Source: Arthrobacter sp. S41 (GTDB taxonomy: Bacteria > Actinomycetota > Actinomycetes > Actinomycetales > Micrococcaceae). From it: DNA of 64,000 nucleotides. A program made the translations under genes and the position numbers. Shown piece by piece: positions 195-27,025 of this stretch (its first letter is position 1; every line of letters starts with the position of its first letter). The stretch covers positions 2,356,001 to 2,420,000 of the forward strand of contig NZ_SIHY01000001.1 of the NCBI RefSeq assembly GCF_004320535.1. Reading direction: 5' to 3'. Below the pieces are notes generated by a model, which was not told the DNA's origin, did no database searches, and saw only the letters and a program-made list of their open reading frames with translations.

Positions 195-210
195 TGTTTC
201 ACGTGAAACG
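195..210. promoter_or_regulatory. parS site 1
   Basis: TGTTTCACGTGAAACG matches the ParB-binding parS palindrome TGTTTCACGTGAAACA at 15 of 16 positions and has the full 14-base core. It is the outermost of eight sites, about 9.3 kb from the dnaA-dnaN gap. Confidence 0.93.
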
Positions 211-261
211 TACGGCAATCCGTCGCTGGAAGTGCCTGCGCAATTACGCACTTTTCACCAC

Positions 262-277
262 TGTTTCACGTGAAACA
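262..277. promoter_or_regulatory. parS site 2
   Basis: Exact 16-base parS palindrome TGTTTCACGTGAAACA, 67 bases from site 1. Such close pairs would serve as ParB loading points next to each other. Confidence 0.95.
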
Positions 278-602
278 TCAATGTAGTTCGTCGTGCCCAT
301 CCAATACTTGCACTGCTCAGCCTGGATGGAACCGACTCGAGGCGCGCCCTTCTGTTCACAGTCCTGCTGTTCATTGCTACGCCAAGGAACAGGCGGCAAC
401 GGATGGATCGTGTTTCAACAACAGACCCGCAGCGCCCATGATGCTCAGCTTTACAGTACGAGACACTGATACTGATCAGCACCAATACATAATCATCGAA
501 CAGGAAATTTCTGAGCCTCCAATAATTATTTATGGGAAGGCCTGAACTGCCCCGTCGCCCCGCAGGTCTCAGAAAGTCCTATGAAAGCCATCCGAACACG
601 GA

Positions 603-618
603 TGTTTCACGTGAAACG
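603..618. promoter_or_regulatory. parS site 3
   Basis: TGTTTCACGTGAAACG has the perfect 14-base core and differs from the palindrome only at the last base. It lies in the gene-poor stretch. Confidence 0.93.
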
Positions 619-1632
619 TCAGAACCTGGACCGAACTACGTGTCCGCAGTCGGGGGCACGCCCACGGAGAAATCATTCAAGCCTGACGCCAGACACAGGC
701 ATGAACTCACTACGTAGATCAAGAACCACTCCCCCTCGGTGAACTGATTCAGATCCGTAGACACATAGTCCCTCCAGCTGAAGCTCATCAGGTGCTTGAA
801 GAAACCGTCAGTATTCGTCGCGAAGGTCGAGAGCACACTTATGGTGCGTCTCTGCTGAATCTACAGACCAGTAACTCAGCGCAGGCGATCCTGATCAGAA
901 ACCCGTGCCTAGTCGCAACTGATTGCTTCAATTCCTACTCGCCGCAACTGTCCATCCGCGAATCATGTCAGATGCTCCTATCCCCTATCCGTCTCAGTGA
1001 TCGCGTTTCATGTTTGTAGCATCAGCGCTCTTACATCTGATGACGCGCTAGTCTCTCGGAACCTCCGTGGAGAAGCCAAAACGATCTCTAATCTAATGAA
1101 CCCTGATCATCGTGTATTGCAATCTCGAAGAGGTGGAACAGTTATGTAGTTCCTTGGAGACTCGTGACAGCGAATCAGGAACGCCGTTTCTAGAAGATAG
1201 CTACGGTACTTCAGTTGAGGCCCGTGGTTCAATTCCTCGCGACAGACAATCTTTCCAACCCCAGGGACACTTCCCCAATGCTGTTGTTGCAGTCCGAGCG
1301 AAAGCATATCTCCACGTATGCAGAAGCCAGGTAGCTACACTGAGTCGGCCAGCAAGATCATTAGTGGTTTGCGACGCTGCATCCGACGTTGTAGCTACAC
1401 ACTCGCAGTTCAACGCCGACCCATTTGAATCTGACATCTCCACCGTGATTCCTCCAGAGACCTCTTCATCCCAATATTGGAGCTACATCTTGGAGGCAAA
1501 TTTGCGGCTGACGGACTGGATCCTTCTGTCGTTCCTAGACTCGCTCTAAGCCCGGATCCCCTACAACCGAACTTTCGCCGATTGCGGTCGCATAAATCTG
1601 TAGTCCTGCGTCGTCAAACGTTGAAATCGTAA

Positions 1633-1648
1633 TGTTTCACGTGAAACT
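1633..1648. promoter_or_regulatory. parS site 4
   Basis: TGTTTCACGTGAAACT has the perfect core and one terminal mismatch. It lies in the gene-poor stretch downstream of parB. Confidence 0.92.
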
Positions 1649-1861
1649 TCACGGCTAATCACCCTATCAATCGTCTGTCCCCTCGATCGCAAGACTGGCG
1701 AGGCCTGTACCCCAGGTGTGTGCATTCGTCAGCCCCGTCAGGTACCACTGGTAGGACTGAATAGGATTTCCTTCGGCTCGGTCGATTCCACCAGTTATCG
1801 ATGCCCTTGGAGTCTGTGGATTACTGAGGACGAGAACATCCGTTCGTCTTCCTCTCCATGA

Positions 1862-1877
1862 TGTTTCACGTGAAACG
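1862..1877. promoter_or_regulatory. parS site 5
   Basis: TGTTTCACGTGAAACG has the perfect core and one terminal mismatch. It starts 39 bases from the start of site 6, so two ParB dimers could load side by side. Confidence 0.93.
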
Positions 1878-1890
1878 CGTCGTTAAATGC

Positions 1891-1926
1891 AAAAGGCGCA
1901 TGTTTCACGTGAAACATGCGCCTTTT
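1891..1926 (-). terminator. hairpin after parB built around parS
   Basis: A perfect 36-base palindrome (two 18-base arms, centre between 1908 and 1909) starts 9 bases after the parB stop codon. Its outer arms are AAAAGGCGCA and the complement; its middle is parS site 6. On the parB strand the RNA would fold into a GC-containing stem ending in a run of four U, with more U a few bases on, which looks like an intrinsic terminator. The same bases therefore appear to act as a DNA centromere site and as an RNA terminator. Termination itself is inferred. Confidence 0.7.
1901..1916. promoter_or_regulatory. parS site 6, inside a hairpin
   Basis: Exact TGTTTCACGTGAAACA. It forms the central 16 bases of the 36-base palindrome that follows parB. 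Confidence 0.95.
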
Positions 1927-1934
1927 CTGCTAAA

Positions 1935-3134
1935 TTATTGCTTCATCTCAGGGTCAATGACCTGCATGATGCGGTTGAGGTCATCGACGGAGGCGAATTC
2001 AATACTGACCTTACCCTTGCGCGAGCCAAGTTGGATCTTCACATTCGTGTCCAGGCGGTCCGCAAGCGACGTAGCGAGGAAGTCTAGGCGTTCGTTACGC
2101 TGAGTCTCTTTGGTTTTCTTTGCAGTCTTCTTAGGCTTGTCGTCACTGAGCGCTACCGCTTCTTCCGTAGCTCGTACGGAAAGGCCTTCGTTGATGATTC
2201 GCTGGGCTAGTTGCTCAATGGCTTCGTTGTTCGAAAGCCCAAGTAATGCCCTCGCGTGTCCAGCGGAGAGTACTCCCGCTGCCACCCGGCGCTGAACCAG
2301 TGGAGGCAGCTTCATGAGACGAATTGTATTGGAGATCTGCGAACGCGAACGTCCAATACGATCCGAAAGTACTTCTTGAGTACAGTCGAATTCTTCTAAT
2401 AGTTGCTGATATGCAGCCGCTTCTTCAAGCGGATTCAGCTGCGAACGATGCAGGTTTTCAAGCAATGCGTCGCGAAGAAGATCATTATCTTGTGTGTCGC
2501 GGATGATTGCTGGGATGGTTTCCAGGCCGGCCGCCTGCGTCGCGCGCCAACGGCGTTCACCCATGACAAGCTCATACGGTGCGTCATCAGCTTCGCGTGA
2601 GGGACGAACAACGATGGGCTGAAGAAGCCCAATTTCGCGGATGGAATGGATGAGTTCATCCATGTGTTCCTGGTCGAAATTGGTTCTTGGCTGCTTACGG
2701 TTAGGATGAATCTGCGTTACATCAAGTTCCGCAAATTTAGCGCCCGGCACCTCAACAAGATCGGACGTCTCATCGGTTGTCACCGAAGGTGCTTCGATCT
2801 TTGGTGCAGTCTTTTTAGCTGGCTTTTCAGCTTCGGTGGGTTCAACCACTGGCTTGGCGGACAACGAGCTATTCAACCCTGGCATCGTCGCGCGTGGTCG
2901 CTTCGTAGTCTTGCTTGCAGCTGGCGCAGCAGACTTTGGTGCCGAGGACTTGCGACCCGGTTCAAAGAACATGTCTACAGGACGTGCTGCCTTACTTTTT
3001 GCGGAATCAGCTTTAGTCTCAGTCGAAGATGTTTCACGTGAAACATCGACTTTCTCCTCGGCAATCTCCGTGACAGGCGAGCTCGAGATAAGAGCACCTA
3101 GTCCCCTACCCAATCCACGCTTCTTCTCTGCCAT
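1935..3134 (-). CDS. parB: chromosome partitioning protein ParB
   Basis: ParB binds parS, loads onto DNA as a CTP-dependent clamp and, with ParA and SMC, organises and segregates the origin region. The 399-residue product begins with the basic GLGRGLGALI segment (about residues 7-16) typical of the end that stimulates ParA. A low-complexity Ala/Lys/Pro/Ser linker runs to about 130. The core then has the CTP-binding motif GERRWRA at 192-198, followed by the helix-turn-helix region and a C-terminal dimer domain. The long linker is usual for actinobacteria. A parS site lies inside the gene and encodes residues of the linker (DVSRETS, about 30-36). It is read in the same direction as parA, but a 194-base gap with a terminator-like hairpin separates them, so it may have its own promoter. 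Confidence 0.97.
   Translation of the reverse strand: MAEKKRGLGRGLGALISSSPVTEIAEEKVDVSRETSSTETKADSAKSKAARPVDMFFEPGRKSSAPKSAAPAASKTTKRPRATMPGLNSSLSAKPVVEPTEAEKPAKKTAPKIEAPSVTTDETSDLVEVPGAKFAELDVTQIHPNRKQPRTNFDQEHMDELIHSIREIGLLQPIVVRPSREADDAPYELVMGERRWRATQAAGLETIPAIIRDTQDNDLLRDALLENLHRSQLNPLEEAAAYQQLLEEFDCTQEVLSDRIGRSRSQISNTIRLMKLPPLVQRRVAAGVLSAGHARALLGLSNNEAIEQLAQRIINEGLSVRATEEAVALSDDKPKKTAKKTKETQRNERLDFLATSLADRLDTNVKIQLGSRKGKVSIEFASVDDLNRIMQVIDPEMKQ
3030..3045. promoter_or_regulatory. parS site 7, inside parB
   Basis: Exact TGTTTCACGTGAAACA inside the parB coding sequence. It is translated as part of the poorly constrained linker, so the site can be kept without cost to the folded domains. 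Confidence 0.95.
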
Positions 3135-3276
3135 GTTAATTGCACGCCCTTTCGTCCGAACATTCAGCCCGAGACTAGTTTACTGTTTTTAAACTTTCAT
3201 ACGGGGATGCGCGCGCAAAAGCCTAGCTCCAGTGTTGACTTCGCTTCAAACCGCTTAAAGTGAACACGAAAAACAA

Positions 3277-3309
3277 ACAAAAAAATACGTAAATATCGAT
3301 CTATTTACG
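3277..3309 (-). terminator. intrinsic terminator after parA
   Basis: On the minus strand, just past the parA stop codon, ACGTAAATA and TATTTACGT form a 9-base-pair stem (3286-3294 with 3301-3309, 6-base loop). It is followed by a run of seven T at 3278-3284 and more T-rich sequence. It would separate parA and parB transcription, at least in part. Confidence 0.65.
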
Positions 3310-3328
3310 TGGAACGGCTTGAGGCAGA

Positions 3329-4252
3329 CTAAGCGCCGCGCTCGGCCATCTCTTGGGCTGCTTCCTTGTACGAAAGTGCGCCAGTTGAGTTGGGATCGTA
3401 CGTAATGACGGTCTGCTGGTAACTAGGTGCCTCGGAGATACGAACGGACCGAGGAATTACTGCTTCAAGAACCTGCTCAGGGAAATGCTCGCGAACTTCA
3501 TTAGCAACCTGCGCGGCCAACTTGGTACGACCGTCATACATGGTCAAAAGAATCGTGGAGACGGTCAGCTTGGAGTTCAAGTGCTTCTGAATCATCTCAA
3601 TGTTCTTCAGCAACTGGCTCAGTCCTTCCAATGCGTAGTACTCGCACTGGATAGGAATCAAAACTTCGCGTGCAGCAACAAAAGCGTTGACGGTCAGAAG
3701 GCCCAGGCTAGGTGGGCAGTCAATGAACACGTAGTCGAGTCGTGGGAGACCCTCTCGCTGACGCGTACGTGCGTAGTCATCTAAGGCTCGCTGTAGGCGC
3801 TGCTCGCGCGCCACGAGGGATACAAGCTCGATTTCAGCACCAGCGAGGTGGATCGTCGCAGGAGCTACCTGCAAGCTAGGAAGCTCTGGGCAGGTTGCAA
3901 CAACGTCAGCCAACGGAAGATCATTGATAAGCACATCGTAGATGCTGTCGACCTCGGCATGGTGCTCAATTCCGAGAGCGGTTGAGGCGTTGCCCTGCGG
4001 ATCAATGTCGATCACCAAAACGTTCATTCCGCCCTGCGCTAGAGCAGCAGCAAGGTTAACAGTGGTCGTCGTTTTACCGACCCCACCCTTTTGGTTTGAG
4101 ATCGTGAAATAGCGGGTCTTATCAGGCGCTGGCACCGTGGTGGCCTCCAAAGCTTCGCGACGACGAAGTTCGCTAGCTATCTGTGTAGCCAGTGGCGAGG
4201 ACGAGTCACTGAAGTCAAAAGCGCTGCTCGATGAGCTCTTAGTCTTGGACAC
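3329..4252 (-). CDS. parA: chromosome partitioning ATPase ParA
   Basis: ParA is the Walker-type ATPase that moves ParB-bound origins apart over the nucleoid. The deviant Walker A motif KGGVGKTT is at residues 55-62, and the FIDCPPSLG Walker B region and other conserved ParA blocks follow. I start at the GTG at 4252, giving 307 residues, because GAGGAGGAG lies 8 bases upstream. An ATG further upstream at 4294 would add 14 residues with no such site. The N-terminal 45 residues are Ser-rich and probably disordered, as in other actinobacterial ParA proteins. A parS site lies about 57 bases upstream of the start, which could let ParB influence transcription. A terminator-like hairpin follows the gene. 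Confidence 0.96.
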   Translation of the reverse strand: MSKTKSSSSSAFDFSDSSSPLATQIASELRRREALEATTVPAPDKTRYFTISNQKGGVGKTTTTVNLAAALAQGGMNVLVIDIDPQGNASTALGIEHHAEVDSIYDVLINDLPLADVVATCPELPSLQVAPATIHLAGAEIELVSLVAREQRLQRALDDYARTRQREGLPRLDYVFIDCPPSLGLLTVNAFVAAREVLIPIQCEYYALEGLSQLLKNIEMIQKHLNSKLTVSTILLTMYDGRTKLAAQVANEVREHFPEQVLEAVIPRSVRISEAPSYQQTVITYDPNSTGALSYKEAAQEMAERGA

Positions 4253-4308
4253 AGGTAAAACTCCTCCTCGTGAATTGATGCAACCCATATTCAAGGCAAC
4301 ACCGACAA

Positions 4309-4324
4309 TGTTTCACGTGAAACA
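4309..4324. promoter_or_regulatory. parS site 8, upstream of parA
   Basis: Exact TGTTTCACGTGAAACA in the gap between rsmG and parA. It is the site closest to oriC (about 5.2 kb) and sits in the probable parA promoter region. Confidence 0.95.
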
Positions 4325-7553: not shown

Positions 7554-8069
7554 GGTGACACTCCAAGACGATCTAGATGATGCGTTCTTCCCGTTGACTA
7601 TTTAGCAGTGAACAACAGGATGACGCTCGTAACTTATAAAAAGTGTGCGTATTTCGCGGGCTCTTCTAAAAAATGAGCAAGTCGCAAATGAAGCACACAG
7701 GACTGAATAACAATAGAAAAATGTTCGCCATAGGTCAAATTGGCGCGACAGTTCCACCAACTTCGCCCGGCAGGCGGTTAGCCTGTGAATAATCTACCCC
7801 AAACTTGTGGATTACTACTGTGCATAACGAAAGAAAGTTCACATTTAGCCACGAAACCGCAGGTCATCTCCAAGCTTAAAACGCTTATTCTCAAGGGAAA
7901 ACCTCTTTTCCACAGTTTAGTGGCCAACTTTTTCCACCTAGCTGTGCATAACTGTGTGGATGGTGGATAGAATCAATGGAGACGTCGTCCAAAAAACGGC
8001 GTTTTCGAGCCTTGGAAACAAGATTCGTGTGACCAAGATTGCATTTTTATCGAGAGTGGGGCGCCCTTA
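7554..8069. promoter_or_regulatory. rpmH-dnaA intergenic region with DnaA boxes
   Basis: A 516-base gap between divergent rpmH and dnaA, AT-rich and with several near-consensus DnaA boxes: TGTGAATAA 7784-7792, TGTGGATTA 7806-7814, TGTGCATAA 7819-7827, TTTTCCACA 7906-7914, TGTGCATAA 7943-7951 and TGTGGATGG 7955-7963. It must contain both promoters. The boxes suggest DnaA regulates its own gene and that this region may be part of a two-part origin around dnaA. No exact TTATCCACA is present here. Confidence 0.75.
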
Positions 8070-9506: not shown

Positions 9507-9974
9507 TCCCAAGAAATCACAGGTGTGGATAAAACTGTGGATGATCTGGTGACTACCTGCGGATAAACATAGGTACCCATGTGGACGTTAAAAATCGTGG
9601 AACTGAGTTTCAACAGGGTGCTGGAACTGAGTGTCAGTTTCAACCACAGATTGTTCACATGCACAATCGCCGTCATTTCACGGTGGATGGGGGTTGTCCA
9701 CAGTATCCACAGGGGTTATTAACACTTCTCCTTTAAACACTTATTCATCCAAATAACGAGTCCACTCCTGAACCTCGAGCCAAACCTGTTCAAATCTTTT
9801 TCTCGCAGCTCTCATCAACAACCGAGACCGAGCGATGACTTTGCATCAACAAGACGTGGCAAGATTAAGATGGAGAGAACGTGCAACTACCTGCTCTATG
9901 CTTAAGAACTTGGCGAGGGAAAAACCTTCTTGGCCTGACTTAAGTTTCAAAGGGTTCCGAAAGGCGGATTTTTC
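9507..9974. other. replication origin oriC (dnaA-dnaN gap)
   Basis: A 468-base gap between dnaA and dnaN, the standard position of oriC in actinobacteria. DnaA boxes read by eye: exact TGTGGATAA 9524-9532; one-mismatch TGTGGATGA 9536-9544, TGCGGATAA 9558-9566, TTGTCCACA 9694-9702 and GTATCCACA 9703-9711; weaker TTGTTCACA 9651-9659. The last strong pair is directly adjacent and is followed by the AT-rich stretch 9716-9770 (with GTTATTAACACTT), a good candidate for the unwinding element. Assignment rests on position, boxes and AT content. Confidence 0.85.
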
Positions 9975-13155: not shown

Positions 13156-15219
13156 GTGTCTACTGAAAATGCTTCACCGCAGGATCCGGCAGAAAGCCAG
13201 GTTCCCGCGGAATCGATGACTTCCAAAGTCGAACATACCTATGGCGCCCAGGATATTACCGTCCTCGAAGGACTCGAAGCGGTACGTAAACGCCCGGGCA
13301 TGTACATCGGTTCCACCGGCCCTCGCGGCCTACACCACTTGGTTTACGAAGTCGTGGACAACTCCGTCGATGAAGCCTTGGCTGGATACTGCGACACCAT
13401 CAACGTCACCTTGCAAGCCGATGGTGGCGTGCGTTGTGTCGACAATGGTCGAGGCATCCCCGTGGATGTCCACCCCACCGAGGGCAAGCCTACCGTTGAG
13501 GTAGTTATGACCATCCTGCACGCCGGCGGCAAGTTCGGTGGCGGCGGTTACGCTGTTTCCGGTGGCCTGCACGGTGTGGGTATTTCCGTGGTTAACGCGC
13601 TATCGCGCAAGGTGGATACCGTCGTTCGCCGCCAGGGCAACGCATGGCGTATCGGCTTCAGCAATGGTGGTGTGACCACCAGCCCGCTGGAAAAGGGTGA
13701 AGAGACCGATAAGACCGGCACCACCCAGACTTTCTACCCGGATCCGGAAATCTTCGAGACCACCGAATTCGATTTTGAGACGCTGCGTGCTCGCTTCCAG
13801 CAGATGGCCTTCTTGAACAAGGGCCTGCGCATCACCTTGACCGATGAGCGCACCCCAGTCAACGCTGAACCAGAAGCCGAAGTCGCCGAAGAGATCGAAA
13901 ACCAGGTAGTTAAGCCAAAAACTGTGGACTACCTCTACAAGGACGGCCTGCTGGACTACGTCAAGCACCTGAACGCCGCCAAAAAGGTAGAACTGGTTCA
14001 CGACGAGGTCATCGCCTTCGAATCTGAAGACGCTGCTCGAGGCATCAGCCTGGAAATTGCGATGCAGTGGACCAACGCCTACGCCGAGTCCGTGCACACC
14101 TACGCGAACACCATCAACACCCATGAGGGTGGTACCCACGAAGAAGGCTTCCGTGCTGCGCTGACCGGTCTGCTGAACCGTTACGCCCGGGATAACAAAA
14201 TCCTGCGCGAAAAGGATGACAACCTCACCGGTGAAGATGCCCGTGAAGGTTTGACCGCGGTGATTTCGGTGAAGCTTTCCGAACCACAGTTCGAAGGCCA
14301 GACCAAAACCAAGCTGGGCAACTCGATGGCCCGCGGCTTTGTCCAGGGTGTAGTCAACGAGGAACTCAGCGACTGGTTCGAGCGCAATCCCAACGTTGCC
14401 CGCGACATTATCCGCAAGGCACAGCTCGCTTCCCAGGCGCGTATGGCCGCCCGCAAGGCGCGCGATAATGCCCGACGTAAGTCGCCGATGGAATCCTTCG
14501 GTATGCCCGGTAAGCTCTCGGACTGCTCCTCGAAGAATCCTTCCGAGTGCGAAGTGTTCATCGTGGAGGGTGACTCCGCAGGCGGCTCGGCCAAGCGCGG
14601 ACGTGACCCACACACCCAGGCCATCCTGCCGTTGCGTGGCAAGATCCTGAACGTGGAGCGTGCTCGTCTGGACCGTGCGTTGGGCAATGCCGAAGTTCAG
14701 GCAATGATCACCGCTTTTGGTACCGGTATCGGCGAAGAGTTCGACATGGCCAAGCTGCGTTATCACAAGATTGTGCTGATGGCCGATGCTGACGTCGACG
14801 GCCAGCACATCACCACCTTGCTGCTGACCTTGATCTTCCGCTTTATGCGTCCGCTGATCGAGCACGGCTACGTTTACCTCGCTGCTCCCCCGCTGTACCG
14901 CATCAAGTGGTCCAATGCGCCGCACGACTACGTGTTCTCCGATAAGGAACGCGATGATGCACTGCTAGCTGGACAGACTTCCAACAAGCGCCTGCCAAAG
15001 GACAACGGAATCCAGCGCTACAAGGGTCTGGGCGAGATGGACTACTCGGAATTGTGGGACACCACCATGGATCCGGAATTCCGTACGCTGCGCCAGGTCA
15101 CCATGGATGACGCCGCAGCCGCGGACGAAGTTTTCTCCGTGCTGATGGGCGAGGACGTGGAGTCCCGCCGTAACTTCATCCAGCAGAACGCCAAGGACGT
15201 GCGCTTCCTGGATATCTGA
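13156..15219 (+). CDS. gyrB: DNA gyrase subunit B
   Basis: GyrB supplies ATP hydrolysis and the TOPRIM domain for negative supercoiling. The 687-residue protein (GTG start) has a GHKL ATPase domain ([17 protein letters not shown] and [14 protein letters not shown] motifs). A transducer domain follows, then the TOPRIM region with the [10 protein letters not shown] and [10 protein letters not shown] blocks and the metal-binding DADVDGQHI. The C-terminal QRYKGLGEM is also present. GC-rich codon choice is stronger than in neighbouring regulatory genes, as expected for a highly expressed gene. gyrA follows after 56 bases. Confidence 0.98.
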
Positions 15220-15275
15220 TCGGCCTAGGCCAAGACGAAATCCACTGAAGACTTTTTGACTTATAAGGGAACACA

Positions 15276-17903
15276 TTGAGCGACGAGCAAACCCCTGAGA
15301 ATGAACCCATGGACGGCGAAGTCATCGAGCCAATCCATGAAGGCGGCCGGGTTGACCAGATCGACCTGCAGACCGAAATGCAGCGGTCCTACCTGGACTA
15401 CGCCATGGCCGTTATTGTTGGCCGTGCCCTACCGGATGTGCGCGATGGCCTGAAGCCTGTGCACCGCCGCGTGCTGTACGCGATGTACGACGGCGGCTAC
15501 CGTCCGGAGCGCGCCTACAACAAGTGCGCCCGCGTTGTCGGCGAAGTGATGGGTCAGTACCACCCGCACGGTGATACTGCGATTTACGATGCCCTGGTTC
15601 GCCTGATCCAGGACTGGGTTATGCGTTACCCACTGGCCCTGGGCCAGGGTAACTTCGGCTCCCCGGGTAACGATGGTGCTGCTGCCCAGCGTTACACGGA
15701 AACCAAAATGGCCCCACTGGCCATGGAAATGGTCCGCGACATCAACGAGAACACCGTTGATTTCCAGGACAACTACGACGGTAAGAACCAGGAACCTACG
15801 GTTCTTCCAGCCCGCTTCCCTAACCTGTTGGTGAACGGTTCCTCGGGCATCGCCGTGGGTATGGCGACCAACATTCCGCCACATAACCTGCGCGAAGTTG
15901 CCGAGGGTGTGCAGTGGTACCTGAAGAACCCGGAAGCTACCCGTGAAGAGCTGCTCGCCGAGCTGATGCTGCGCGTCAAGGGCCCGGACTTCCCATCCGG
16001 CGCGATGATCCTTGGCACCAAGGGCATCGCCGATGCTTACCGCACCGGCCGTGGTTCCATCACTATGCGCGCGGTAGTCAACGTGGAAGAAATCCAGGGT
16101 CGCACCTGCTTGGTAGTTACCGAACTGCCATATATGGCCAACCCGGATAACCTCGCGGTGAAGATCGCCGAGCTAGTGCGTGACGGCAAGATCGCCGGCA
16201 TCGCCGACATGCGCGATGAAACCTCGGGCCGTACCGGCCAGCGCCTGGTCATCGTGCTCAAGCGCGACGCCGTGGCCAAGGTTGTGCTTAACAACCTGTA
16301 CAAGCACACCGAGCTACAGACCAACTTCTCGGCCAATATGCTGGCCATCGTTGACGGGGTGCCACGCACCCTGCCACTGGATGGGTTCATCCGTCACTGG
16401 GTCACCCACCAGATCGAAGTCATCGTACGCCGCACCCAGTTCCGCCTGAAGAAGGCCGAAGAAGAGGCACACATTTTGCGTGGCCTGCTCAAGGCACTGG
16501 ATGCTTTGGACGAGGTCATCGCGCTGATTCGCCGTTCGGCAACCACCGAGGCAGCGCGCGACGGACTGATGGAACTGCTGAGCATCGATGAGGATCAGGC
16601 CCGCGCCATCCTTGATATGCAGCTGCGTCGTCTGGCCGCTCTGGAGCGCCAGAAGATTCAGGATCGTCACGCTGAACTCGAGCGCATGATTGCCGAATTC
16701 CAGGCCATCATCGCTTCGCCTGAACGTCAGCGAGAAATCGTCGCCGAAGAACTTGGCGAGATCGTGAACAAACACGGCGATGATCGTCGCACCAAGATCC
16801 TTATGGGCTACGACGGCGACATGAGCGTTGAAGACCTGATCCCTGAAGAGGAAATGGTCGTCACCATCACCCGCGGTGGGTACGTTAAGCGCACCCGCAT
16901 TGATAACTACCGCTCGCAGGCTCGCGGCGGCAAGGGCATCAAGGGCGCTAACCTGCGCGGGGACGACGTGGTGGAGCACTTCTTCGTCACCTCAACCCAC
17001 AACTGGTTGCTGTTCTTCACCAACCACGGCCGTGTGTACCGCACCAAGTGCTACGAACTGGCCGAGGCCGGTCGTGACGCCAAGGGTCAGCACGTGGCAA
17101 ATGTCATGGCATTCCAGCCCGACGAGCACATCGCCCAGGTCTTGGATCTACGCACCTACCAGGATGCTGCCTACCTAATGTTGGCTACCCGCAATGGTTT
17201 GGTGAAGAAGACCCGTCTGGAAGACTACGACACCAACCGCACCGCCGGCGTGATCGCTATCAACCTGCGCGACGATGATGAGCTTGTCTCCGCACAGCTG
17301 GTTAGCGAATCCGATGATGTGATGCTGGTCTCGCGCAAGGGTCAGTCGGTCCGCTTCACCGCGACCGATACCGCACTGCGTCCAATGGGTCGTGCAACTT
17401 CTGGTGTGACCGGCATGAAGTTCCGTGAAGGTGATGAGTTGTTGGCCGCCGATGTGGTCCGCGAAGATTCCTTCGTCTTCACGGTGACCAACGAAGGTTA
17501 CGCCAAGCGCACCGATGTTGCTGAATACCGCGTTCAATCCCGTGGTGGCTTGGGCATTAAGGTTGCCAAGCTGAACGAGGAACGCGGCGAATTGGTTGGT
17601 GCGTTGATCGTTGATGAAACCGACGAAGTTTTGGTTGTCATGAGCGGTGGCAAGGTGGTGCGCTCAGCCGCATCGCAGGTTCCTGCCAAGGGTCGAGACA
17701 CCATGGGTGTGATCTTCGCAAAGCCGGACAAGAAGGACAGCATTATTGCGGTAGCCAAGAACTCCGAGACCCAGCTCGAAGAGAACTTGGAGGAAGATGC
17801 CGTAACGTTGGACGCAGAAAACACGATCGATCAGTCATCACCTGCGCCAGAAACCGAAACTGACGTACAGGACGATGACACCACTAACGGAGGTAACGCA
17901 TGA
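15276..17903 (+). CDS. gyrA: DNA gyrase subunit A
   Basis: GyrA breaks and rejoins DNA. The 875-residue protein starts at TTG 15276, with AAGGGA upstream. The winged-helix region contains [14 protein letters not shown], the quinolone-target segment, with Thr at the position of E. coli Ser83 and Asp at the Asp87 position. The catalytic tyrosine is in AAQRYTE near residue 140. The C-terminal half has the beta-pinwheel repeats and a GyrA-box variant, QARGGKG. The last 60 residues are acidic and low-complexity. The stop codon overlaps the next gene as ATGA. Confidence 0.98.
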
Positions 17904-23400: not shown

Positions 23401-24246
23401 ATGTCCTACGGGCAAATTAACCCTCAGGGCCAAGCAGCTCCGACATGCTATCGACACCCGGACACGGTAGCTTACGTTTCTTGCAATCGGTGCGAACGCC
23501 CGATCTGTCCTCAATGCCAGGTCTCTGCCCCAGTGGGCGTGCAGTGTGTGGAATGTGTCGCGGAGGCCAGCAGGCGCCTGCCGCAACAGCAAACACAGTT
23601 TGGTGGGCGCTTACGCTCCGGTGCTCCGGTGATTACCTACGCCGTGATCGCACTGAACGTCCTTGTATACCTATTCCAGTGGATCATCCCGGGGCTGACC
23701 AATTCATTGGTCCTAGCGCCCGTGATCGCCGCTTATGAACCATGGCGTTTGATCACCAGCGCCTTCGCTCACTCCACCGGGTCAATCCTGCACCTGGCCA
23801 TGAACATGTACGGCATCTACATCTTCGGCACATTGCTCGAGCCCCGACTAGGCAGGCTGCGTTTCGCTTGGCTTTATCTGCTCAGCGCCATCGGCGGATC
23901 CTTGGGCATCTTATTGCTCAGCGCTCCGATGAGTGCCACGCTCGGTGCCTCAGGCGCATTGGCAGGCCTCTTCCTAGCAACCTTTGTTGTCTTCCGCTCC
24001 AACAAGCAAGCCTTGCGCCAGATGGGCATCATTCTGGTGCTAAACATCGTGCTTGGCTTCGTCGTTTCCGGAATTTCTTGGCAAGGACACTTGGGTGGCG
24101 CCGTAACCGGCATTATTGCTTCAGCATGTATCGTGCTGATCCCTAGAAGTAATCCACAGCGTTCGCGAATCCAGCTAGTACTGCTCAGCGCATTATCGAT
24201 ACTTCTGCTTGTCGCTGTGTACCTTGCAGCCCAGGGTGCAAAGTGA
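23401..24246 (+). CDS. rhomboid family intramembrane serine protease with N-terminal zinc-binding motif
   Basis: A 281-residue protein. Residues 14-50 hold a B-box-like zinc motif with paired cysteines and a histidine (CYRHPD, CNRC, CPQC, CVEC). Six to seven membrane spans then form the rhomboid core. The catalytic Ser is in LGASGALAGLF and the catalytic His in QGHLGGAVTG. Rhomboids cut membrane proteins within the lipid bilayer. Substrates are unknown. The cytoplasmic zinc motif is common in actinobacterial members. The start has AAGGCAGG upstream. The gene is followed by the DnaA-box cluster. Confidence 0.93.
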   Translation: MSYGQINPQGQAAPTCYRHPDTVAYVSCNRCERPICPQCQVSAPVGVQCVECVAEASRRLPQQQTQFGGRLRSGAPVITYAVIALNVLVYLFQWIIPGLTNSLVLAPVIAAYEPWRLITSAFAHSTGSILHLAMNMYGIYIFGTLLEPRLGRLRFAWLYLLSAIGGSLGILLLSAPMSATLGASGALAGLFLATFVVFRSNKQALRQMGIILVLNIVLGFVVSGISWQGHLGGAVTGIIASACIVLIPRSNPQRSRIQLVLLSALSILLLVAVYLAAQGAK

Positions 24247-24277
24247 CCGGAGCATAGTTCGAAAACCCCAGTATTCG

Positions 24278-24741
24278 TTATCCACACAGATTATCCACAC
24301 TGTTAATAACTTACATCCGTGTAACTTCCGGAGCTTCGGAGATATTAACAGGCGTGGATACCTTTGTATTCAAGGATATTTCGAGGACGCTAAGCAATAC
24401 TCACAACCTTGTCCCCAGTTGTGGATAACTTTTTAACAACCCCTGTAGATAGCGCATATACGAACCAGCGAACTGTTAATAACTTTAGGTTCGAAAGTTT
24501 AACCGATTAGCGCGAGTGGCTGTGAATAAGCGAAAATCGAGCGCTATCCACAGTCGAAATCCACAGTGTTAATAACTTACAAGCATGTCATTTGTTTAAC
24601 GAAAAGTACACTTGACAAGTTATAACGCGCATATCCATTCAAGAATCGACACATTGTCCCCAGCTGTGGATAAGTTTGTGAACAACTGTTGGTAAAAGTT
24701 GTGCACATTGCATGTGGATAACGTTGATAACTTGTGGATTA
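24278..24741. other. DnaA-box cluster resembling a second origin or DnaA-titration site
   Basis: Between two convergent genes lie five exact DnaA boxes (TTATCCACA): 24278-24286 and 24291-24299 on plus, 24420-24428, 24665-24673 and 24713-24721 on minus. One-mismatch boxes are at 24521-24529, 24544-24552 and 24733-24741, with weaker ones at 24353 and 24557. Between them TGTTAATAACTT occurs three times (24301, 24474, 24567), and a GTTGATAACTT relative is at 24724. The region is AT-rich. The exact-box count exceeds that of the dnaA-dnaN gap 14.5 kb away. No gene is visible in it. Function as an auxiliary origin, a datA-like titration site or an initiation-control locus is inference. Confidence 0.8.
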
Positions 24742-25356
24742 GTTGGTGAAAAGGGGCCAGATCAAGAAGGTTGCGAACAAAAGCATAAGGATGCCGATGA
24801 TGAAGTCGAGGATCTGCCAGGCCTTGGGTTTTGCAAACAGTGGGGCGAGCAGGCGCGCTGCGTAGGCAAGAACAAAAAACCAGATGAAGCTCGCAGTGAT
24901 GGCTCCGAACGCAAACCATGGAGCACCGTCGCCTTGGGCTACGGCAACCGATCCGAGTAGTAGAACCGTGTCGATATATACGTGGGGATTGAGCCAAGTT
25001 AGCGCCAGCGTAGTTCCGATTATTGACAGGGTCGTCACCGAACGAGTTGAATCGCTAATTTTCAGCGACTCTGGTTTGAACGACCGGCGAAAGGCGAACG
25101 CCGCATACGTTGCAAGGAATAGGAAGCCACCCAAGCGCGCGATGACCAGTAGCCAGGGGAGTCGCTCAACTAAGACGCCCATTCCGCTGACTCCAGCACA
25201 AATGAGGACGGCGTCAGACAGGGCGCAGACTAGCGCGGTGGTGAAGACGTGCTCTTTTCTGATTCCTTGACGGAGCACGAAGGCGTTCTGGGCGCCGATG
25301 GCCACGATCAGCGATAGTCCAGTGGTCATACCGAAGAAAAATGGTGCAGGAGTCAT
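24739..25356 (-). CDS. lysE: LysE/ArgO family basic amino acid exporter
   Basis: A 205-residue exporter of lysine/arginine with five to six membrane spans. The N-terminal block GLSLIVAIGAQNAFVLRQGI is diagnostic for LysE/ArgO, as are ALSDAVLICAGVSG and TWLNPHVYIDTVLLLG. I choose ATG 25356 because the residues before the first span then match family length; an ATG at 25407 would add 17 residues and reach to within 20 bases of lysG. It is divergent from lysG, as in Corynebacterium, so export is probably switched on by LysG when basic amino acids build up. Confidence 0.93.
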   Translation of the reverse strand: MTPAPFFFGMTTGLSLIVAIGAQNAFVLRQGIRKEHVFTTALVCALSDAVLICAGVSGMGVLVERLPWLLVIARLGGFLFLATYAAFAFRRSFKPESLKISDSTRSVTTLSIIGTTLALTWLNPHVYIDTVLLLGSVAVAQGDGAPWFAFGAITASFIWFFVLAYAARLLAPLFAKPKAWQILDFIIGILMLLFATFLIWPLFTN

Positions 25357-25426
25357 GAGAAAACCGTATGAAAATCTACAGGCTAAGTCGAACTTAACTT
25401 TCTGCATCTAGATTAGAGTTCCTAAT

Positions 25427-26311
25427 GTGAATATCGACGTTGAGCACCTCGAGACCCTGCTGGCTGTGGTGGATGCCGGAAGCTTTGATGATGCATCCAT
25501 CGACTTAGGCGTTACGGCCTCTGCCGTCAGCCAGCGAATCAAGGCTTTGGAGAATCGAATCGGGGCGATCCTTGTAATCAGGAGTCGTCCGGTCATTCCT
25601 ACCGAACAGGGATATAGGGTGCTCAGGTATGCGCGGCAGATGGCGTTGCTCAGCGCGGAATTCACCCGGGAAATTTCTGCCGACGCACCCTTGAACGTAG
25701 CCATCGGAGTTAACGCTGATTCCTTGTCCACGTGGTTCTCGCCGGTCTTTGAACAGTTGGCAGACATCGAGAATCTGTCTGTTGAGATTCTGCGTACCGA
25801 TGAAAACAGGGGATTGGAGCTACTTCGTAGCGGACGAGTCAGCGCCGTAGTCACTACGACTTCCCAAGCACTTCAAGGATGCGTCAGTAAAAAGCTTGGA
25901 GCCATGAGATATCGCGCAGCTGCAGCACCACGCATCGTTGAACGGTACCTGCCCCGCGTGGATCCAGAAGCCCTAGTTAAAACACCAATGGTCGTTTTTG
26001 ATCGCGAGGATCCATTGCAATACAGCATGGTCGCACGGCTTGCTGGCCAGGACCGACGGCCCGAAGCCCAAGTGCACCACGTCCCTGACTCGCTGCGATA
26101 CCTCTGTGCGGTTGAAGCAGGGATGGGCTGGGGGATGATCCCCGAACTACAACTCGCTGAAGCCACGGGGCTGAAGGTACTTCACGAGGATTGGTTCGCC
26201 GATGTTCCGCTCTACCTGCAGCGATGGGCCGTGGATTCAGAACTGCTAAGCAAGATGGATGGCATATTAGTCACAGCCGCCCGCCAATTCGGACTGCATT
26301 TGATAGCCTGA
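25427..26311 (+). CDS. lysG: LysR-type regulator LysG/ArgP
   Basis: A 294-residue LysR-type activator. The N-terminal winged helix-turn-helix includes GVTASAVSQRIKALENRIG (about residues 26-45), and the effector-binding domain fills the rest. Pairing with a divergent lysE is the standard arrangement for LysG, which senses lysine, arginine or histidine. A TAGATT -10-like box lies about 12 bases before the GTG start with no ribosome-binding site, so the message may be leaderless (inference). Confidence 0.93.
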   Translation: MNIDVEHLETLLAVVDAGSFDDASIDLGVTASAVSQRIKALENRIGAILVIRSRPVIPTEQGYRVLRYARQMALLSAEFTREISADAPLNVAIGVNADSLSTWFSPVFEQLADIENLSVEILRTDENRGLELLRSGRVSAVVTTTSQALQGCVSKKLGAMRYRAAAAPRIVERYLPRVDPEALVKTPMVVFDREDPLQYSMVARLAGQDRRPEAQVHHVPDSLRYLCAVEAGMGWGMIPELQLAEATGLKVLHEDWFADVPLYLQRWAVDSELLSKMDGILVTAARQFGLHLIA

Positions 26312-26338
26312 GCTCGTTGCAGGCAATCAATGTCTGTA

Positions 26339-26380
26339 CCCGGACGAGGGAGCCGTACCCGGAAATCGACAAGACGGCCA
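26339..26380 (+). promoter_or_regulatory. guanidine-III (ykkC-III) riboswitch
   Basis: CCCGGACGAGGGAGCCGTAC, then CCGGAAATCGACAAGACGGC, closely matches the compact guanidine-III riboswitch consensus. CCGG (26340-26343) can pair with CCGG (26359-26362), and GCCGT (26352-26356) with ACGGC (26374-26378), giving the pseudoknot, with conserved ACGAG and ACAAGACGG. It ends about 6 bases before AAGGA of the exporter gene, so ligand binding probably controls exposure of the ribosome-binding site. The downstream gene is a Gdx-type guanidinium exporter, the expected partner. Confidence 0.9.
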
Positions 26381-26395
26381 GAAAAGGATTCCGGC

Positions 26396-26713
26396 ATGTA
26401 TTGGGCCGTTCTTATTATTTCTGGTGTCTTCGAAGCCGTTTGGGCCATTGCCTTGGGCATGAGTGAAGGCTTGTCGAAACTTCTTCCAAGCATCGTCTTC
26501 TTTGCTGGCTTACTAGTTTCCATGGCTGGCCTTGCCTATGCCATGAAAGAGATTCCTGTTGGCACCGCCTACGCAATCTGGGTAGGTGTCGGAGCATCAC
26601 TCGCGGTGATCTACTCAATGGCCACCGGACAAGAAGCGTTTTCGGTGCTCAAGGTGGTGTTCATCATTGGTCTGGTCGGATGCGTTATCGGACTCAAGGC
26701 CGTAAGCCACTAA
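26396..26713 (+). CDS. gdx: SMR family guanidinium exporter (Gdx/SugE)
   Basis: A 105-residue small multidrug-resistance protein with four membrane spans. The essential glutamate is in SGVFEAVWAIAL, and GTAYAIWVGVGA is the signature of the third span. The SugE/Gdx subgroup exports guanidinium in exchange for protons; the upstream guanidine-III riboswitch supports that substrate here. The start ATG 26396 has AAAAGGA upstream. A longer frame reading through the riboswitch would add 22 residues and is rejected. Confidence 0.93.
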   Translation: MYWAVLIISGVFEAVWAIALGMSEGLSKLLPSIVFFAGLLVSMAGLAYAMKEIPVGTAYAIWVGVGASLAVIYSMATGQEAFSVLKVVFIIGLVGCVIGLKAVSH

Positions 26714-26767: not shown

Positions 26768-27025
26768 CTATTTCCAGCCTGTTGTCATAAAGAATCCGAC
26801 CATCGCGATGCCGAATCCAACAACAATGTTCCATCCACCAATGTTGGGGATTGGGAACAGGGTCTGAGAAATGTAGTAGACGATGATCCACACCAGGCCA
26901 AGGAGCATCAAACCAAACATGACAGGTTTGTACCAACCTGGCATTGGCGCATCAATGGAGTGGGTGCGCTGGCGCTCGGTTTCGGCCTGTGTTTTGTTCT
27001 TGCGTCGTGGTTTTGACTCCGGCAC
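26768..27025 (-). CDS. crgA: cell division protein CrgA
   Basis: CrgA is a small actinobacterial membrane protein that bridges FtsZ and septal cell-wall enzymes and restrains premature septation. The 85-residue protein has a basic N-terminus (PRRKNKTQ), then two membrane spans around GWYKPVMFGLMLLGLVWIIV and the conserved PIPNIGGWNIVVGFGI. The GTG start at 27025 has GAGGGAG upstream. Its position next to the sortase and trpG genes is the normal one. Confidence 0.95.
   Translation of the reverse strand: MPESKPRRKNKTQAETERQRTHSIDAPMPGWYKPVMFGLMLLGLVWIIVYYISQTLFPIPNIGGWNIVVGFGIAMVGFFMTTGWK

Follow-up and report, generated by a model that had tools for sequence, protein, structure and literature searches.

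The window, that is, the whole 64-kb stretch of DNA analyzed here, contains a 492-bp gap (24247-24738) between two convergent genes, one encoding a rhomboid protein (23401-24246, plus strand; best named relative from Glutamicibacter sp. JC586, 90% identical, in line with a Glutamicibacter-like genome) and the other a LysE protein (24739-25407, minus strand). Five exact DnaA boxes, TTATCCACA, lie in this gap, at 24278(+), 24291(+), 24420(-), 24665(-) and 24713(-), together with three one-mismatch boxes, at 24521(-), 24544(+) and 24733(-), and three copies of the AT-rich sequence TGTTAATAACTT, at 24301, 24474 and 24567. The scan thus recovered everything that a preliminary description of this DNA had listed, namely, five exact boxes, at least three one-mismatch boxes and three TGTTAATAACTT copies in a convergent-gene gap of about 490 bases. 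The features of the locus, with one element of oriC for comparison, are as follows.

9694-9727, plus strand: oriC element, box-box-GGGG-TTATTAACACTT, in the dnaA-dnaN gap (comparison element)
23401-24246, plus strand: rhomboid gene (PF01694), adjoining the element in the family loci checked
24247-24738, unstranded: whole DnaA-box cluster, filling the convergent-gene gap (box scan; DNA matched in 18 of 18 genus genomes)
24278-24299, plus strand: module 1 tandem of exact boxes at 24278 and 24291, 13 bp start to start (box scan, alignment)
24301-24312, plus strand: TGTTAATAACTT of module 1, its first ten bases being the oriC 10-mer GTTATTAACA, inverted (genome motif count)
24409-24428, both strands: module 1 opposed pair, weak TTGTCCCCA (plus, 24409) and exact box (minus, 24420), 11 bp start to start
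24443-24449, plus strand: CTGTAGA block, invariant in the genus (alignment)
24474-24485, plus strand: middle TGTTAATAACTT, away from the tandem boxes (alignment)
24490-24495, unstranded: TTCGAA block, invariant in the genus (alignment)
24521-24529, minus strand: one-mismatch box TTATTCACA, unconserved across most of the genus alignment
24544-24565, plus strand: module 2 tandem, CTATCCACA (24544) and AAATCCACA (24557), 13 bp start to start (alignment)
24567-24578, plus strand: TGTTAATAACTT of module 2 (alignment)
24654-24685, both strands: module 2 opposed pair, TTGTCCCCA (plus, 24654) and exact box (minus, 24665), followed by TTGTTCACA (minus, 24677)
24713-24721, minus strand: exact box (box scan)
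24733-24741, minus strand: one-mismatch box that overlaps the LysE stop codon (box scan)
24739-25407, minus strand: LysE gene (PF01810), a neighbor within the genus only
26771-27022, minus strand: crgA (PF06781), the usual convergent partner in the class, here set apart from the cluster

At up to one mismatch, the entire window contains 29 boxes compared with 9.3 expected from shuffles, and the gap contains 8 where about 0.07 would be expected in DNA of this size. The 3.47-Mb genome harbors 21 exact copies of TTATCCACA (12 for the reversed control), of which 5 are in this gap and 1 is in the dnaA-dnaN gap. No exact TGTTAATAACTT exists in the genome beyond these three copies; with one mismatch allowed, this sequence occurs 7 times, which is not above its reversed control (11). 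Of the five tandems of boxes 13 bp apart that the genome contains with up to three mismatches allowed, the cluster has three, oriC one and the region upstream of dnaA one; none is found with the reversed control. The locus thus has a defining feature of oriC-proximal DnaA-box clusters, namely, DnaA boxes packed closely into non-coding DNA that lies outside oriC.

Weaker paired sites at 24409, 24557, 24654 and 24677, absent from the preliminary description, complete a regular design that consists of two modules. In the alignment of 18 genus genomes, each module has two plus-strand boxes, 13 bp apart start to start; TGTTAATAAC begins 10 bp past the start of the second tandem box; and an opposed pair follows, in which a weak plus-strand box (for the window, TTGTCCCCA) is succeeded 11 bp further by a strong one on the minus strand. 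From the second tandem box to the strong minus-strand box, module 1 of the window spans 129 bp, and module 2 spans 108 bp. The middle copy of TGTTAATAACTT, which is unpaired, is missing in 5 of the 18 genomes. The invariant columns of this alignment include 74 of the 99 in boxes and 23 of the 36 in TGTTAATAACTT copies, compared with 41 of the remaining 347 columns of the gap. The TTCGAA, CTGTAGA and TTGTGAACAA blocks are common in the genus; elsewhere, CTGTAGA and TTGTGAACAA are nearly absent, and TTCGAA is patchy.

The cluster DNA was matched in all 18 genus genomes, each time between the rhomboid and LysE genes and with 3 to 6 exact boxes. In the family, BLAST matches to it were found in at least 122 of 295 genomes, the 18 genus genomes included, a lower bound because the cluster DNA diverges. 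In the 12 family loci listed, the element lies 3' of the rhomboid gene, and LysE was not found. The place between rhomboid and lysE, whose persistence in relatives the preliminary description proposed to check, holds throughout the genus, but LysE was found as a neighbor in the genus only, and the wider neighbors are rhomboid and crgA. Two family loci (L091 and L092) show no box in the 650 bp after the rhomboid gene because their clusters start 727-782 bp after it. Among the 30 family crgA loci listed, the 8 pieces that include the rhomboid gene all carry an exact box between the two genes, the other 22 pieces, without rhomboid, being outside this count. The distance from the rhomboid end to the dnaA start is 14.8 to 17.4 kb in all 20 genomes of a set that comprised our genome and 19 others chosen because their contigs begin at or near dnaA.

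In the genus, genes for LysE, a LysR-type regulator and an SMR-type transporter (24739-26713) separate the cluster from crgA. Some loci that retain the boxes (L129, L130), in turn, showed no rhomboid gene within their 5.2-kb piece, and no one neighbor gene accompanies the element in all the loci examined. Given that crgA is separable from the boxes and rhomboid is absent from some pieces, the element seems to be maintained independently of its neighbors. These observations bear on a local role, in which DnaA bound at the cluster would control the flanking convergent genes via termination or antisense transcription. The location between two 3' ends would suit such control, and the gap contains one terminator-like match (0.7 expected) and two promoter-like matches (1.4 expected); however, these are no more than shuffles yield, and the neighbors change while the element stays, so that we deem local control highly improbable. 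Readings of the gap as a promoter, a terminator or a structured RNA were rejected, with nothing beyond chance detected for any of them and no Rfam family match in the cluster.

In the class Actinomycetia, crgA was found in 385 of 394 genomes and, in the loci fetched, usually converges with rhomboid. We compiled 101 usable rhomboid-crgA gaps from 60 class loci, hand-picked for family spread from the best-scoring crgA matches and, therefore, not a random sample, and from 45 of 46 named rhomboid loci; left out were L144 (a wrong-side piece), L160 (an incomplete piece), L034 and L035 (no crgA match) and L069. (In L035, an exact box lies 144 bp after rhomboid.) An exact TTATCCACA is present in 77 of the 101 gaps and missing from 24; either TTATCCACA or TTGTCCACA is found in 86, and any of six box variants in 96, a count that has no control of its own. 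The gaps, 75.4 kb in total, contain 149 exact boxes compared with 3 in 996 kb outside. Among 300 permuted 9-mers used as a control in the same gaps, the mean was 0.23, and the maximum, 8, belonged to a shifted copy of the box. When Micrococcaceae were removed, an exact box was still present in 64 of 88 loci, with 91 boxes in 45.8 kb of gap versus 3 in 801 kb. The G+C content of the gap (0.66) is close to that of the flank (0.67), and tandem spacings of 12-13 bp recur beyond the family. One of the proposed refuting observations, absence of the boxes in close relatives, is accordingly contradicted by both the genus and the class data. Judging from this conservation, the cluster is an old, selected element, and, with a fixed chromosomal spot in most of the loci examined, it is probably a built-in control of the start of replication.

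The spacing of the boxes was analyzed in 92 family gaps from 17 genera (103 pieces minus 11 with neither rhomboid nor crgA), which were chosen from cluster matches and so show geometry rather than frequency. Among same-strand spacings, that of the 13-bp tandem is far more frequent than any other. The distances from tandem to opposed boxes in these gaps fall at 43, 106-112, 117-119, 128-132, 142, 152, 167, 175 and 194-196 bp; 22 modules have no exact opposed box within 200 bp. The best helical period is 11.0 bp (R 0.66) for 41 genus-distance pairs, whose independence is compromised by the common ancestry of orthologous modules; for nine hand-binned modes, of which the 167-bp one misfits, the phasing has p of about 0.01. 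Helical phasing of tandem and opposed boxes is therefore likely, and the steps of about 11 bp between genera suggest that both arms of a module have to lie on one and the same helix face. Such phasing, together with the opposed pairs and the class-wide proximity to the origin, could also fit a structural role, with cluster-bound DnaA bridging to oriC or organizing the origin domain jointly with parS sites and so aiding orisome assembly or segregation. Eight parS sites do lie within the window's first 4.4 kb, but the contact with oriC would be conjectural, and we regard a structural role as fairly unlikely. The parS-like sites are located at 195-4324, to the left of dnaA, and include four exact and four one-mismatch matches to the parS consensus.

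The preliminary description ranked the cluster above oriC and read a single exact box in the dnaA-dnaN gap. Our scan agrees on that box: the dnaA-dnaN gap contains one exact and four one-mismatch boxes, and the 400 bp upstream of dnaA contain no exact and five one-mismatch boxes. The ranking accordingly stands for exact boxes (five versus one). The five one-mismatch boxes upstream of dnaA (7784-7951) include a 13-bp tandem and possibly serve dnaA autoregulation. In all 20 dnaA-dnaN gaps compared (our genome and 19 other Micrococcaceae), a box pair is followed by GTTATTAACA; this element, box-box-spacer-GTTATTAACACT, is a candidate unwinding site. The 10-mer GTTATTAACA occurs six times in our genome, three times in the cluster, once in oriC and twice elsewhere (three for the reversed control), and its cluster copies are inverted relative to the boxes when compared with all 20 oriC gaps. 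The arrangement recalls the oriC basal unwinding system (BUS), likewise tandem boxes followed by an AT-rich element and represented in our oriC by box-box-GTTATTAACA. However, the AT-rich element of the cluster is not in the oriC orientation, and the cluster boxes are 13 bp apart, as opposed to 9-10 bp in the oriC gaps examined. The inverted 10-mer suggests an origin-like assembly of DnaA that would not be arranged to open DNA.

Strand skew appeared at first sight to favor an origin at the cluster: in each of 11 genomes, the raw cumulative GC skew (1-kb steps) reaches its minimum 3 to 18 kb to the right of dnaA, and 5 of the 11 have it no more than 1 kb from the cluster. Segment by segment, a different picture emerges. 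Plus-strand genes from gyrA to the cluster (46 genes) have a fourfold-site skew of -0.085, similar to leading-strand genes elsewhere (-0.070 to -0.127), whereas lagging-strand genes are at -0.139 to -0.180; intergenic DNA has a positive skew from +5 kb onward, and the segment ahead of the cluster behaves like the right arm. The first 5 kb, with dnaA, dnaN and recF, resemble the left arm (-0.165 for plus-strand genes, -0.033 for intergenic DNA). The gyrB/gyrA segment (13156-17903) is strongly C-rich (-0.274), and the codon usage of these two genes accounts for much of the displacement of the raw minimum from dnaA. The segment-wise values place the strand switch between dnaA and the end of gyrA, that is, before the cluster. 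A main origin at the cluster finds no support, given this switch and the inverted 10-mer, the raw minimum being misleading; the gyrB/gyrA effect is a caution for origin calls based on skew. As for the auxiliary origin of the preliminary description, dense boxes with AT-rich repeats, the raw minima and the lagging-like genes of the first 5 kb speak for it, and the leading-like genes between gyrA and the cluster, the positive intergenic skew, the gyrB/gyrA contribution and the orientation of the 10-mer speak against it; a minor origin of this kind is conceivable, but, in our judgment, very unlikely.

On balance, we lean toward viewing the cluster as an oriC-proximal DnaA-binding regulatory locus that would limit DnaA once copied. 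The locus lies about 14.3 kb from the dnaA-dnaN gap, close to the 14.5 kb given previously, and must be copied soon after initiation. The cluster is genuine, shows strong conservation and is replicated early; as a class of function, titration or inactivation of DnaA is thus well supported, and to this extent so is the earlier suggestion of titration. Two reviews (PMC5742627 and PMC4585315) state that untimely initiation is repressed by DnaA-box clusters close to oriC in S. coelicolor and B. subtilis. A third review (PMC5295017) describes early initiation only after the loss of six B. subtilis clusters and states elsewhere that clusters with a significant role have not been identified in B. subtilis. 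The position and content of the cluster make a role like that of the Streptomyces and Bacillus clusters, a strong DnaA site that doubles early, the likeliest one. This assignment is favored by the presence of 5 of the 21 exact boxes in 492 bp, the conservation of the boxes, the spacing rules kept between genera, the recurrence of exact boxes in class-wide rhomboid-crgA gaps, the narrow range of distances from dnaA and the changing neighbors; the 24 of 101 class loci without an exact box in the gap and the statements of PMC5295017 count against it.

Under the mechanism we propose, DnaA would bind the tandem boxes as well as, at a distance of about 108-130 bp and probably on the same helix face, the opposed pair, and each module could close into a looped complex. 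Since replication reaches the locus shortly after origin firing, its two copies would pull DnaA away from oriC and perhaps alter the nucleotide state of DnaA, such that premature re-initiation would be restrained, an idea drawn from the parallel with datA and with the clusters of Streptomyces and Bacillus. Against this, the sink would be small with about a dozen sites, except where DnaA is scarce or the site is catalytic. The fixed geometry suggests a defined complex rather than a passive sink, so that a change in the state of DnaA is possible. We would entertain, as a rather less probable option, a more specific scheme, in which an Actinomycetia-wide, position-fixed element forms a phased, looped DnaA complex that alters the activity as well as the amount of DnaA, a counterpart of datA or DARS, with the inverted AT-rich element making it a decoy origin unable to open DNA.

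Little is understood of how actinobacteria restrict replication to one round per cycle, and SeqA and Hda of E. coli are not known from these bacteria. A DnaA-box locus at one chromosomal place in most of the class loci examined, usually beside the division gene crgA, offers a small deletion target across many species, and the cluster provides spacing rules for a possible assembly of DnaA outside the origin. In the openly licensed literature, our searches turned up neither the class-wide position nor the phased architecture and nothing that joins crgA with DnaA boxes; papers that mention both DnaA boxes and rhomboid appeared unrelated, judging by their titles and the beginnings of their abstracts. 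This kind of locus is already known from Streptomyces and Bacillus; the class-wide position and the phased architecture appear to be the new part.

The cluster shares some features with E. coli datA, likewise a non-coding cluster of DnaA boxes near oriC that is copied early and keeps its spacing, as described in PMC5742627 and PMC4585315. The essential boxes of datA, according to PMC5742627, share one direction and need IHF; the strong boxes here face both ways, and opposed boxes are among the best conserved. A datA-type identity of the cluster is conjectural. Two proteins of the HU/IHF family (PF00216) are encoded in our genome.

A second, less widespread DnaA-box cluster, with two exact and six one-mismatch boxes, is located upstream of dnaB (L164:4660-5130; C1, about 2307660-2308130), about 56 kb to the left of the dnaA start, and is matched in 15 of the 18 genus genomes. 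Across the class, the 700 bp before the DnaB-domain match contain an exact box in 10 of 30 loci (14 boxes in 21 kb versus 2 in 75.5 kb elsewhere). The two clusters differ in their relation to E. coli DARS1, which we take to lie in the bioD-uvrB gap, with DARS2 taken to lie in the mutH-ygdQ gap. The DARS1 deletion primer printed in PMC4585315 matches the bioD-uvrB stretch used; in the DARS2 region, a simple scan detected one weak box. In DARS1, box I is opposed to boxes II and III, and the latter two are 12 bp apart, as in module 2, where the third box (24677) has two mismatches; module 1 has only a poor site at 12 bp. However, boxes I and II of DARS1 are 14 bp apart (cores at 208+, 222- and 234- in L163), compared with 11 bp in the rhomboid-gap cluster, and membership in the DARS1 type was rejected on this spacing. 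The 14-bp opposed pair is found, instead, in the dnaB-upstream cluster, in all 15 genus copies and in 2 of the 30 class loci, our own genome being one. The reactivating function suggested earlier, whereby opposed boxes would speed ADP release and remake ATP-DnaA so that the locus stimulates initiation, fails on the same spacing; in addition, the cluster is near oriC, and E. coli DARS2 moved close to oriC impairs the timing of initiation, according to PMC5742627. Despite the match of module 2 to the II-III spacing, we find a DARS-like role unlikely.

Titration or inactivation of DnaA, the function we prefer, finds parallels in two other bacteria. In the actinobacterium S. coelicolor, the clusters H69, H24 and D78, reportedly described by Smulczyk-Krawczyszyn et al. 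in 2006, likewise consist of DnaA boxes outside but near oriC. H69 is reported to come from a crgA-carrying cosmid and may correspond in position to the rhomboid-crgA gap, in which all 10 presumed Streptomyces loci have exact boxes; the strong regulator, however, is said to be D78 rather than the crgA-linked cluster. The two-module architecture described here is that of Micrococcaceae. In B. subtilis, the DnaA-box clusters, reportedly the subject of Okumura et al. in 2012, also lie outside oriC, with six clusters there compared with one strong cluster and a second one upstream of dnaB here.
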